Assembly: GCF_900110555.1 (NCBI RefSeq)
Contig: NZ_FOEE01000004.1
Location: 62,001 to 126,000 of the forward strand
Reading direction: 5' to 3'
Source: Trujillonella endophytica
Lineage (GTDB): Bacteria > Actinomycetota > Actinomycetes > Mycobacteriales > Geodermatophilaceae
Length of the DNA: 64,000 bases
Shown here: positions 24,830 through 27,695 of the stretch, one piece after another
Position numbering within the stretch: the first letter of the stretch is position 1
Layout: every line of letters begins with the position of its first letter
The notes under the pieces: model-generated
Told to the model about the DNA's origin: nothing
Database searches by the model: none
Seen by the model: only the letters and a program-made list of their open reading frames with translations
Position numbers and translations under genes: made by a program

Positions 24830-25376
24830 CCCCGGCCGGCGGCTCGACGTCCCGCGGGGCCAGGCCCGCGGCCTCGGCAACTTCCTGCGGCTGGACCCCG
24901 ACGCGGTCGGCCGCTTCGCCGAGGGCATCGCCCGGTTCCTCGGCACGGGGCGCTTCCTCGCCGTCCAGACGCTGATCGTGATCATCTGGATCGTGCTCAA
25001 CGTCGCCGCCGTCCGGCTGCGCTGGGACCCCTACCCGTTCATCCTGCTCAACCTGGCGTTCTCCACGCAGGCGGCGTACGCGGCGCCGCTGATCCTGCTC
25101 GCGCAGAACCGCCAGGCCGACCGCGACCGGGTGCAGGCCGAGGAGGACCGCGCCCGGGCGGCGAGCACGCGCGCCGACACCGAGTACCTGGCCCGTGAGC
25201 TGGCGGCGCTGCGGGTGGCGGTCGGCGAGCTGGCCACCCGCGACTTCATCCGCGGCGAGCTCGGCCGGATCCTCGAGGACGAGAGCGAGGAGCGGGAGAA
25301 GAAGGCCCGCAAGAAGAAGGAGCGGGACAAGGAGCGGGAACGGGAGCGCGAGCGCGAGCGGGAGGCCGGGCGCTGA
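24822..25376 (+). CDS. DUF1003 membrane protein
   Basis: 184 residues. A DUF1003 core (about 28-110) has two helices with the conserved LNLAFSTQAAYAAPLILLAQNRQ. A charged coiled-coil region (110-160) and a tail of alternating lysine, arginine and glutamate residues (about 155-184) follow. The GTG start lies inside the end of the preceding gene, so translation is coupled. The function is unknown; the pairing with an MgtE-N/CBS protein suggests ion homeostasis. Confidence 0.85.
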   Translation: MADPGRRLDVPRGQARGLGNFLRLDPDAVGRFAEGIARFLGTGRFLAVQTLIVIIWIVLNVAAVRLRWDPYPFILLNLAFSTQAAYAAPLILLAQNRQADRDRVQAEEDRARAASTRADTEYLARELAALRVAVGELATRDFIRGELGRILEDESEEREKKARKKKERDKEREREREREREAGR

Positions 25377-25419
25377 CTGCCCGGCGGACCTGTCGGTACC
25401 CGGCGGCACACTGCCGGGC

Positions 25420-25896
25420 ATGCGCGCGCACTCCGTGCTGCCCTCGCCGGTCGGTCCGCTGACCGTCGTCGCCGACGACGGCGTCCTCGTCCGGCTGTAC
25501 CTCGACCCGCCCGGTCCCGAGGCCGCCCTGGGGCCGCGGGACGACGCCGCGCTGGCGCCCGTGTCCGCCCAGCTCGGCGAGTACTTCCGCGGCGAGCGCG
25601 AGGCGTTCGACGTGCCGCTGCGGCCGGTCGGCAGTGCCTTCGAGCGGGCGGTGTGGGCGCAGCTGAGCGCGATCCCCTACGGCGAGACCCGCTCGTACGG
25701 GCAGGTGGCGCGCGCGGTCGGCGAGCCGGGCGGGGCCCAGGCGGTCGGGCTGGCGTGCGGGCGCAACCCGCTGGCGGTCGTCGTCCCCTGCCACCGGGTG
25801 GTCGGGGCGGACGGCGCCCTGGTCGGCTTCGGCGGCGGCCTGCCCCGCAAGCGGTTCCTGCTCGACCTCGAGCAGCGCGAGGCCCGGCTCTTCTAG
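25420..25896 (+). CDS. ogt: Methylated-DNA-protein-cysteine methyltransferase
   Basis: 158 residues, the size of Ogt without an Ada regulatory domain. The DNA-binding helix GETRSYGQVARAVG is followed by RNPLAVVVPCHRVVG with the acceptor C124. It takes the methyl group from O6-methylguanine or O4-methylthymine in a suicide reaction. It stands alone, 44 bp after the DUF1003 gene. Confidence 0.92.
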   Translation: MRAHSVLPSPVGPLTVVADDGVLVRLYLDPPGPEAALGPRDDAALAPVSAQLGEYFRGEREAFDVPLRPVGSAFERAVWAQLSAIPYGETRSYGQVARAVGEPGGAQAVGLACGRNPLAVVVPCHRVVGADGALVGFGGGLPRKRFLLDLEQREARLF

Positions 25897-25902
25897 CGTC
25901 CC

Positions 25903-25945
25903 ATCAACCGTTGTTGACGGAATCCGGTCATCAACGTAGGTTGAT
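25903..25945 (+). promoter_or_regulatory. Two 16-bp palindromic operators before the HTH gene
   Basis: ATCAAC-CGTT-GTTGAC (25903-25918) and ATCAAC-GTAG-GTTGAT (25930-25945) share the form ATCAAC-N4-GTTGAT with centres 27 bp apart. The second covers the ATG at 25944. The next gene encodes a small helix-turn-helix protein, so autoregulation is likely. The pattern is seen directly; the binding protein is inferred. Confidence 0.65.
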
Positions 25946-26171
25946 GGACGTGGTCGACCTCCCGCCCGTGCCCGACGCGGACGACCCCGAGGCGGCACTC
26001 GCCGCCGTCGTGGCGCTCCGCCGGCTGGCGACGCGGCTGGAGGTCGAGGCGGTGACCGAGGCCGTCGACCGGGGCTGGACGTGGGCCCAGGTCGGAGAGG
26101 CGCTCGGGATCAGCGCACAGGCCGCACACAAGAAGCTGGCTGCCGAGGTCCGCGCACGGCGCGGACGGTGA
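25944..26171 (+). CDS. Small helix-turn-helix regulator paired with a Clp-N protein
   Basis: 75 residues. A helical N-terminus (about 12-36) leads to a helix-turn-helix at 41-70 (WTWAQVGEALGISAQAAHKKLAAEV). This resembles the DNA-binding proteins found next to Clp N-domain genes in actinobacteria. There is no leader room for a ribosome site after the second palindrome, so translation may be leaderless from the ATG. Its stop lies 14 bp before the next start. Confidence 0.78.
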   Translation: MDVVDLPPVPDADDPEAALAAVVALRRLATRLEVEAVTEAVDRGWTWAQVGEALGISAQAAHKKLAAEVRARRGR

Positions 26172-26185
26172 TGGAGGAGACGACG

Positions 26186-26686
26186 ATGGGTCTGGTCCGC
26201 GCGATCCGGGACATCCGCACGATCAAGCGCCTGCTGACCGGCGCGGAGGCCGAGGCGCGCAGCGCCGGGGAGGCGGTACCCGGCCCCGAGCACCTGCTGC
26301 TGTCGGCCGCCGCGCTGCCCGACGGCTCGGCCGCGCGCGCCCTCGCGCGGCTGGGCACCGATGCCGCCGCCCTGCGCTCCGCCGTGGCCGCGACCCACGC
26401 GGAGGCCCTGACCGACCTCGGCCTGGAGGCGGGCACGGCTCCCGCACCCGCCCTCGCCACCCCCGCCGCGGGGCCGATGCGGACCAGCCCGCAGGCGCAG
26501 CAGGTATTCCAGCGGGCCGTGGAGCTCTCCAAGCGCGCGTCACCGGCGGGGCTGCGCGGTGTCCACGTGCTCGCGGCGGTCGGCGAGCTGGAGCGCGGCA
26601 CCGCGGTCCGCGCGCTGCGCCGGCTCGGGGTGGAACCCGGGCAGGTGACGGCGGCGGCGCGCGCCGAGGAGGACGTCCTCGCCTGA
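26186..26686 (+). CDS. Clp N-terminal-domain protein without ATPase
   Basis: 166 residues with two Clp-R type repeats: GPEHLLLSAAALPDGSAARALARLG (about 33-57) and GLRGVHVLAAVGELERGTAVRALRRLG (about 119-145). Clp N-domains recognise substrates or adaptors for ClpC. Here no AAA+ domain follows. I start at the ATG at 26186 because GGAGGAG lies 7-8 bases upstream; an ATG at 26171 overlaps the HTH stop. It may act as adaptor, decoy or inducer partner of the HTH regulator. Confidence 0.78.
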   Translation: MGLVRAIRDIRTIKRLLTGAEAEARSAGEAVPGPEHLLLSAAALPDGSAARALARLGTDAAALRSAVAATHAEALTDLGLEAGTAPAPALATPAAGPMRTSPQAQQVFQRAVELSKRASPAGLRGVHVLAAVGELERGTAVRALRRLGVEPGQVTAAARAEEDVLA

Positions 26687-26688
26687 GC

Positions 26689-27003
26689 TCACGCCAGGAC
26701 GTGCACCAGCGCGCCCGTTCCCCCGGCCAGCACGAGGACGACGATGAAGGGCGCCCGCAGCGCGAGGGCCAGGGCGGCGACGGCCAGCCCGGCGAGCCGG
26801 CCGTCGACCACCAGCTCGCCGTCCGCGGTGCCCGCCTGCACGGCGACCAGGGCGGCCAGCAGCGCCGCCGGCACGAAGTCGACGACCCGGGCCACCCACG
26901 GCTGCTCCACCCAGCGGGCCGGTACCGAGAGCCCGGCCAGCTTCAGCAGGTAGCAGCCGAGGGAGGCGCCGAGCACCAGCGTCCAGAGCGTGCCATCGCT
27001 CAC
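26689..27003 (-). CDS. azlD: AzlD-family branched-chain amino acid exporter subunit
   Basis: 104 residues with four hydrophobic helices and the AzlD pattern TLWTLVLGASLGCYLLKLAGL and PAALLAALVAVQ. The GTG start overlaps the azlC stop as GTGA. AzlC and AzlD together export branched-chain amino acids or analogues. It converges with the Clp-N gene, 2 bp apart. Confidence 0.85.
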   Translation of the reverse strand: MSDGTLWTLVLGASLGCYLLKLAGLSVPARWVEQPWVARVVDFVPAALLAALVAVQAGTADGELVVDGRLAGLAVAALALALRAPFIVVLVLAGGTGALVHVLA

Positions 27004-27695
27004 GCGGCGCCCTCCCGCCGGCGGGGCGGGCCGGCCAGCGCCACGGCGACCACCGCCGCGATCACCTGCACCCCGGGCGCCACGACCGGCGTCAGGAGGA
27101 GGGCGACGACCGCCCCGCCGAACGCCACCCGGCGCTGCACCGCCGCTTCCGGGAACCCGCGCAGCAACCGCGGCCACAGGAGCGCGAGGAAGGCGGCCGG
27201 GACGACGGCGTCCAGCGCCGCCTGCGCGGTCTCCCCCAGCGCCGCCGAGCCCAGGGCCCCGACGACCGTGGTCGCGTTCCACAGCAGGTAGACGCTCGCG
27301 CCGGTGGCGAGGAAGCCGACGCGGGCGAGCCTGCGCTCGGGCGCGGCCACGGCCATCGCCGTCGTCTCGTCGATGACCCAGTGCGCGCTGGCCGCCCGGG
27401 ACAGCACGCCCCGGGGACGCAGCAGCGGCACGAGCCGCACGCCGTACACGGTGTTCCGGGTGCCCAGCAGCAGGGCGCTGCCCGCGGCGGCCAGCGCACT
27501 GCCGCCCGCGCCCAGGACGCCGACCAGCGCGAACTGCGAGGCCCCGGTGAACATCAGCATCGACAGGGCCGTCGCCTGCCAGACGTCCAGCCCCGCGGCG
27601 GCGGCCGCCGCACCGAACGCCACGCCGTACAGCCCGACGGCGACGCCCAGCCCGATGGCGTCGCGCAGGACGGCGGTGCGGGCGGCGTCGGACAC
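27000..27695 (-). CDS. azlC: AzlC-family branched-chain amino acid exporter subunit
   Basis: 231 residues with about seven hydrophobic helices. The family marks are VGLYGVAFGAAAAAAGLDVWQA, MFTGASQFALVGVLGAGG and the NTVYG segment. The length matches AzlC. It is first in the azlCD unit, with a GTG start. No Lrp-type regulator is adjacent. Confidence 0.87.
   Translation of the reverse strand: MSDAARTAVLRDAIGLGVAVGLYGVAFGAAAAAAGLDVWQATALSMLMFTGASQFALVGVLGAGGSALAAAGSALLLGTRNTVYGVRLVPLLRPRGVLSRAASAHWVIDETTAMAVAAPERRLARVGFLATGASVYLLWNATTVVGALGSAALGETAQAALDAVVPAAFLALLWPRLLRGFPEAAVQRRVAFGGAVVALLLTPVVAPGVQVIAAVVAVALAGPPRRREGAA

Follow-up and report, generated by a model that had tools for sequence, protein, structure and literature searches.

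ClpC1 is a tuberculosis drug target. Its mycobacterial relative ClpC2 is reported, in the available text of Taylor et al. (PMC10030653), to be one protein composed of a dimerising N-domain and a part resembling the N-domain of ClpC1, and to act as a repressor of its own promoter through CGTCAAC-n5-GTTGACG sites overlapping the -35 and -10 elements. According to the same text, cyclomarin A releases this repression and ClpC2 soaks up the drug, acting as an inducible sponge that blunts cyclomarin, and homologues occur in several actinobacteria, including Modestobacter marinus. Three ligands that bind ClpC2 are compared in the available part of PMC12913811, where only desoxycyclomarin is reported to cause induction. 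A second relative is the antitoxin RelI, which is said in the available part of PMC13284704 to resemble the HTH (helix-turn-helix) region of ClpC2, its homologues being described as emerging from ClpC2; the discussion of that paper states that there is no evidence of DNA binding by RelI.

We analysed a 64,000-nucleotide stretch of DNA (the window) that contains a small HTH gene followed by a gene for a free Clp N-domain protein (Clp-N), preceded by twin palindromes (Table 1). The pair probably forms an operon that represses itself and functions like mycobacterial ClpC2, but with the two parts encoded by separate genes, and, judged by sequence, such split HTH/Clp-N pairs are widespread in actinobacteria.

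The HTH and Clp-N genes of the window

Table 1. Coordinates of the HTH/Clp-N locus and its upstream neighbour in the window
Feature	Position	Strand	Remarks
O6-methylguanine DNA methyltransferase gene (upstream neighbour)	25423-25896		Pfam E 8.9e-33; ends 6 bases before the first operator
Upstream operator ATCAACCGTTGTTGAC	25903-25918	.	One mismatch; right half supplies TTGAC of the -35 TTGACG (25914-25919)
Downstream operator ATCAACGTAGGTTGAT	25930-25945	.	Perfect fit to ATCAAC-N4-GTTGAT; contains the -10-like TAGGTT (25937-25942)
Small HTH protein	25950-26171	+	Probable leaderless GTG at 25950, 73 aa; longest form from ATG 25944, 75 aa
Shine-Dalgarno-like GGAGGAG of the Clp-N gene	26173-26179	+
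Free Clp N-domain protein	26186-26686	+	166 aa, two repeats, no ATPase; start 14 nt past the HTH stop

An earlier note on this DNA had described a 75-residue HTH protein and a Clp N-domain protein lacking an ATPase, and both descriptions hold: an open reading frame of 75 codons is present at 25944-26171 (73-75 aa depending on the start), and the second product carries two Clp_N stretches (Pfam E 2e-12) within 166-171 aa, which leaves no room for an ATPase. Its placement of a palindrome over the start codon was correct only for the longest form. The ATG at 25944 overlaps the downstream palindrome by 2 bases, but the GTG at 25950, which lies just outside the palindrome and 7 nt after TAGGTT, is the likelier start, because, among 8 close relatives, the equivalent ATG falls outside the HTH frame in four (L012, L014, L015 and L016) and is in frame in the others (L010, L011, L013 and L017). 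The HTH gene ends with TGA at 26169-26171, and the Clp-N gene has its separate start in a different frame, probably at the ATG at 26186 behind the GGAGGAG rather than at 26171, since the starts of relatives align there and an in-frame TGA lies upstream in L011 and L012.

The HTH protein was modelled with a pLDDT of 91.4 and helices at residues 15-42, 47-54 and 58-73 (75-aa numbering), the last being the recognition helix, which in this family opens with an [ST]XQA motif whose variable residue is referred to below as X. Foldseek gave no match to this model at E <=0.001, and a second fold comparison returned middling Z scores to many HTH proteins (DeoR, 5.5); neither the ClpC2 N-domain nor RelI appeared in the fold matches listed, which is uninformative either way. 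At the sequence level, the HTH profile matched the ClpC2 N-domain (8ada) marginally, at E 0.097, and reached fused ClpC2-like genes at E ~1e-7, while a phmmer search of PDB sequences with the HTH protein placed RelI (E 8.8e-4; profile E 4.6e-7) second after a protein named CAP REPEAT. The Clp-N model (pLDDT 89.2) matched the ClpC N-domain 2y1q with Z 18.4, the cyclomarin-bound ClpC1 N-terminal domain 3wdc with Z 17.4 and the ClpC2 C-terminal domain 8ad9 with Z 12.0. The same genome encodes full-length Clp ATPases in frames of 973 and 891 aa. No RNA element was matched by Rfam at gathering score within positions 25000-27500 of the window.

Operators, promoter and distribution

Two clean 16-bp palindromes had been claimed in the earlier note; both lie where it placed them, but only the one at 25930-25945 is perfect, that at 25903-25918 carrying one mismatch. 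Dinucleotide shuffles of the window contained a mean of 0.26 sites with <=2 mismatches, and 3 of 100 shuffles reached two sites anywhere in the 64 kb; two sites within 27 bp are therefore well beyond chance. In its own 4.87-Mb genome the perfect ATCAAC-N4-GTTGAT occurs once, and the degenerate pattern RTCAACN4GTTGAY with <=1 mismatch occurs six times, compared with no occurrence of the reversed-pattern control. Half of these six sites lie at the genome's two HTH/Clp-N operons, two at the window pair and one at a second pair (C20:273.6 kb). The genome-wide search for a regulon that the earlier note had proposed thus revealed none, with just three near-matches outside the HTH/Clp-N operons, and local autoregulation would be the simplest reading of the palindromes.

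The earlier note had also made its reading depend on conservation of the palindromes in relatives, and they proved to be conserved. Under a rule of at least 10 of 12 matches upstream with spacers of 2-8 allowed, 85 of 86 split pairs had at least one operator site, and each of these 85 had an N4 site, versus 6 of 257 control windows taken from inside genes. An origin of the palindromes by chance was rejected on the strength of the shuffles, the own-genome count with its reversed control, and this conservation relative to control windows. Under stricter conditions (N4, with 7 of 8 letters matched in the TCAA/TTGA cores) two sites were found in 100 of 112 split pairs but not in the remaining 12; the spacing between the sites in the 100 two-site pairs was 27, 28 or 29 bp (36, 52 and 12 pairs, respectively).

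The two sites differ in the promoter elements that they carry. TTGAC was present in the upstream site in all 100 pairs and in the downstream site in 63 (the rule itself largely imposes TTGA but not the C), while TAnnnT was present in the downstream site in 96 of 100 versus 5 of 100 for the upstream one. These positions imply a distance between -35 and -10 of 17, 18 or 19 bp (63, 31 and 2 pairs; 17 bp in the window, from TTGACG to TAGGTT), and in 92 of 96 pairs the nearest in-frame start, taken from 2 nt past the -10 onwards, came after 6 or 7 nt. From these regularities we infer that the operators are themselves the promoter, overlapping its -35 and -10, and that the mRNA is probably leaderless. 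The window promoter was not among the calls of a generic promoter scan. All 13 true fusions had a 5-bp operator spacer at both sites, versus 4 bp in split pairs. At five loci (L086, L090, L092, L093 and L095) the operators were asymmetric, with AGCAAC/CGCAAC as the left half upstream and GTTGCT/GTTGCC as the right half downstream, which suggests a further operator code.

To define the distribution of the pair, an HTH profile built from 11 proteins was searched with a cut-off of E <=0.001, and matches were obtained in 130 of 396 genomes of the phylum and in 83 of 96 genomes of the family. Of the phylum matches listed down to E 1.1e-14, 77 lay outside the own genome, and 76 of them were fetched; a separate Clp-N gene followed the HTH gene in 70 of these 76, five lacked a Clp-N partner, and one (L098, a frame-joined split pair) was apparently an in-frame fusion. 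When 16 split family loci and weaker matches picked to sample fused genes were added, the resulting 108 classed loci comprised 86 split, 14 fused (13 excluding L098) and 8 partnerless loci; most being split, the mycobacterial fusion is therefore just one form. The gaps between the HTH and Clp-N genes piled up at -4 and -1 nt (35 of 85 loci with a called start). A sequencing frameshift in a fused gene was rejected as a cause of the split, given that 86 loci were split and that their start codons lay a short way from the HTH stop. Three genomes of another family (f2) of the same taxonomic order contained a split pair as well as a fused gene (split/fused loci L083/L123, L101/L122 and L106/L128 in G169, G487 and G393, respectively), and the fused L123 protein matched the M. 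tuberculosis ClpC2 structures 8ad9 (E 9.6e-45) and 8ada (E 1.8e-29).

A genome scan for Clp-N of the window type yielded 37 named loci, with an HTH gene upstream at 33 and none detected upstream at 4; for 10 of the 37 an ORF guess was made for flanking genes. These loci include Corallococcus (Myxococcota) and Pelagerythrobacter (Alphaproteobacteria). On plasmid pSU1 of Agarilytica rhodophyticola (Gammaproteobacteria; L178), an HTH gene with Lys at X and a Clp-N gene are accompanied by twin GTCAA-type sites at 2192-2207 and 2220-2235, with a TATAGT -10 within the downstream operator and the annotated start, ATG 2239, 7 nt on. Pairs outside Actinomycetota look like natural transplants in which pair and operators moved together. 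A plasmid search with Clp-N alone returned 3 records, and tblastn of both proteins against 50,697 phage records returned no match.

Two further observations concern the variety of these loci. The window's own genome contains a third, more distant HTH (L125, C20:442582-442767), a 97-aa frame with an LTKQGAQQRF helix, three GTCAA-type N5 palindromes upstream and no Clp-N partner found. In the split pairs L087, L100 and L107 the Clp-N protein is ~330 aa long with an extra C-terminal part, which from its appearance we take to be SRPBCC/START-like.

Covariation of HTH and operators, and the Clp-N clade

The half-site tally covered 87 of the 112 split pairs, those in which two sites were present and the [ST]XQA motif could be read (28 with Ala/Gly and 59 with Arg/Lys at X), and the three half-sites outside the -35 were counted as informative. 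With Ala/Gly at X the outer operator base was A in 79 of 84 informative half-sites from the 28 pairs, and with Arg/Lys it was G in 161 of 177 half-sites from the 59 pairs and in 39 of 39 from 13 fusions. The fourth half-site, the upstream right half, was of G type in 100 of 100 pairs, as would be expected from the embedded -35. Scored by locus, A-type operators accompanied 27 of 28 Ala/Gly versus 4 of 62 Arg/Lys proteins (Fisher p 1.2e-17, uncorrected for kinship), and within the window's clade 27 of 28 versus 0 of 8. The exceptions were the Arg loci L086, L092, L095 and L100, scored as A-type because their half-site is AGCAAC, and the Ala locus L164, scored as G-type. On a Clp-N tree of 109 rows, residue X changes 4 times on the best tree and once on starred branches; with so few independent changes a tree-based pair test is unable to reach significance, and with a single change forced by the starred branches kinship may underlie the covariation.

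Window-type pairs have Ala/Gly at X and ATCAA-type sites. Nine genomes of the family contain such a pair, and eight of them also have a second one (L006 and L171-L177), with Arg at X. The upstream sites of these second pairs are GTCAAC/GTCAAT, and the downstream left half is GTCAAC in five and CGCAAC/TGCAAC in three, never ATCAAC, a pattern consistent with insulated paralogues. At the Actinomadura and Spirillospora loci, which represent one lineage, AHHR replaces AHKK and the sites are GTCAAA.

Because a recognition-helix residue covaries with the outer base of the operator, the HTH protein is the likely reader of the operators. In the available text of PMC10030653, DNA binding by ClpC2 was placed on the Clp-N domain, an R185A/R189A double mutant binding less well, and the words helix-turn-helix, operon and fusion are absent from its main text. 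The residue equivalent to R185 (ClpC1 position 93, by counting from F172/F80) is Arg in 2 of 36 loci of the window's clade versus 43 of 73 other split pairs, and the operators are kept in this clade although that Arg is mostly gone. The published ClpC2 structures cover residues 4-72 (N-domain) and 94-252 (C-domain), while the recognition helix of a close fused relative, TKQAAQKRF, corresponds to about residues 73-81; the other ClpC2 entries listed (8ad9, 8b9o and 9p2p) match this relative from residue 92 on only. For ClpC2 itself, the two assignments of DNA binding may both be correct.

The Clp-N protein of the window belongs to a clade of 36 loci on a long branch (SH-aLRT 99 in a quick tree). 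The phenylalanines of ClpC2 that contact cyclomarin, F96 and F172, correspond to F2 and F80 of ClpC1. F2 is present in 0 of 36 members of the clade versus 58 of 73 other split pairs; position 80 is Phe in 0 of 36 and aromatic in 0 of 36, versus Phe in 50 and an aromatic residue in 63 of the 73. Both contact phenylalanines being gone, the ligand should therefore differ: the clade's Clp-N would bind something, but probably in another way than ClpC2 binds cyclomarin. Of the two glutamates E31 and E106, which we take to be phospho-arginine contacts in ClpC, the clade has kept E31 in 36 of 36 and E106 in 0 of 36.

Mechanism and relation to known systems

In the operon that we consider probable, the HTH protein would bind both operators over the -35 and -10, one dimer per palindrome, and would thereby repress the probably leaderless transcript for HTH and Clp-N, two steps for which the comparative data argue strongly. 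The later steps are put forward more cautiously. Clp-N might be a decoy of the docking domain of ClpC and might contact the HTH protein, keeping it on DNA or in a complex; a molecule that targets the ClpC N-domain (a natural product, foreign protein, adaptor or unfolded client) could then bind Clp-N, whereupon repression would lift and more decoy would shield ClpC. Action of Clp-N in trans on the HTH protein is suggested by the fusions, the adjacency of the genes and their overlapping frames. The earlier note's view of the pair as a stress-type switch agrees with the conserved operators and the HTH protein as likely reader, and stress-type induction fits the relative ClpC2 as described in the available text of PMC10030653.

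It is unlikely, though conceivable, that the two proteins are independent parts, with the HTH protein alone repressing and either sensing for itself or being titrated, and Clp-N serving as output only (a ClpC decoy or holdase) without contacting it. The HTH protein is indeed predicted to fold alone (pLDDT 91.4), and the covariation involves HTH and DNA only; against this, its 73-75 residues offer no obvious room for a sensor domain, and the close adjacency (70 of 76 loci) and 13 natural fusions suggest joint action.

We regard as improbable the reading of the earlier note, in which the switch would lie in the stability of the HTH regulator and Clp-N would act as its adaptor or anti-adaptor, handing it to ClpC or protecting it from ClpC. 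Clp-N does have the fold of the ClpC docking domain, full-length Clp ATPases of 973 and 891 aa are encoded in the genome, and E31, presumably a phospho-arginine contact, is kept throughout the clade (36 of 36), but the second glutamate, E106, is kept in 0 of 36. Moreover, ClpC N-domains receive adaptors and substrates, and there is no evident route by which a free N-domain would bring a substrate to ClpC; for ClpC2, what was measured in the available text of PMC10030653 was an effect of the ligand on DNA binding, not on regulator turnover. ClpC2, whose ligand-bound Clp-N part frees the promoter and soaks up ligand, would be the better-founded analogy than delivery or protection.

There is little to recommend a toxin-antitoxin-like pair, with Clp-N as an effector that is neutralised by a RelI-type antitoxin, the HTH protein. 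RelI ranks second among the PDB sequences that the HTH protein matches (E 8.8e-4; profile E 4.6e-7) and its homologues are described as emerging from ClpC2 in the available part of PMC13284704, but the immediate neighbours of the HTH gene are the DNA methyltransferase gene and Clp-N, with no RelE-like toxin, a Clp N-domain has no known catalytic site, PADLOC matched neither protein, and the gene order and twin operators follow ClpC2. Least credible of all is that the palindromes are accidental or the site of an unrelated regulator: TCAAC/GTTGA sites are short and a site alone names no reader, but sites accompany 85 of 86 split pairs versus 6 of 257 control windows, are spaced by 27-29 bp in 100 of 100 two-site pairs, and have bases that covary with the HTH recognition helix.

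A broader reading of the self-repressing operon can be offered tentatively. The split operons may form a widespread, self-contained family of sensor-decoys with insulated operator codes (4 versus 5 bp; A versus G), of which ClpC2 would be one fused member; its reader would be the HTH, with a recognition helix lying between the two published ClpC2 domain structures, and the window's clade, which extends to Myxococcota and Proteobacteria, might protect ClpC, or some other Clp, from N-domain ligands of a different class, its free Clp-N acting in trans on the repressor. If the sponge belongs to a large two-gene sensor-decoy family, many actinobacteria may have a ready tolerance to natural products that target ClpC, and the divergent Clp-N pocket of each clade would indicate a ligand yet to be discovered. 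With the split form it can also be tested which domain reads the DNA, a point that the ClpC2 structures listed do not settle, none of them including the aligned recognition helix.

Among known systems, the split pair is unnamed in the titles and abstract openings of the literature matches listed, and no experiment on such a pair turned up in this search, outside which most subscription papers fall; the available part of PMC9240326 contains nothing on ClpC2, and PADLOC-DB returned 0 families for both proteins at E <=1. Mycobacterial ClpC3, described in the available part of PMC10864484, is another small Clp protein and is said there to bind cyclomarin and ecumicin; it may conceivably correspond to the Clp-N half of a split pair such as L083 or L101. 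RelI (Rv2664, of RelS-RelI) is a small protein of the same family as the window HTH; however, as described in the available part of PMC13284704, its partner is a RelE-like RNase, its toxin gene comes first and no inverted repeats were found upstream, whereas in the window the HTH gene precedes that of its partner, Clp-N, and the operators are clear. With ClpC2 (Rv2667 and the M. smegmatis homologue) the pair shares an ATPase-free part resembling the ClpC1 N-domain, twin TCAAC/GTTGA pseudopalindromes over the -35 and -10, and a proposed leaderless transcript, which in the present case is deduced from sequence alone; each system also has an HTH-bearing part, the direct match between these parts being marginal. 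It differs from ClpC2 in that it consists of two genes rather than one fused polypeptide, in its operator (ATCAAC-N4-GTTGAT/C versus GTCAAC-n5-GTTGAC, and hence in spacer and in outer base, A versus G), and in the cyclomarin phenylalanines, which are present in ClpC2 and absent from the window's clade. Since fusion, 5-bp spacer and cyclomarin phenylalanines were each looked for and found lacking, we do not class the window pair as ClpC2; it is best described as a variant form that appears to work like ClpC2.
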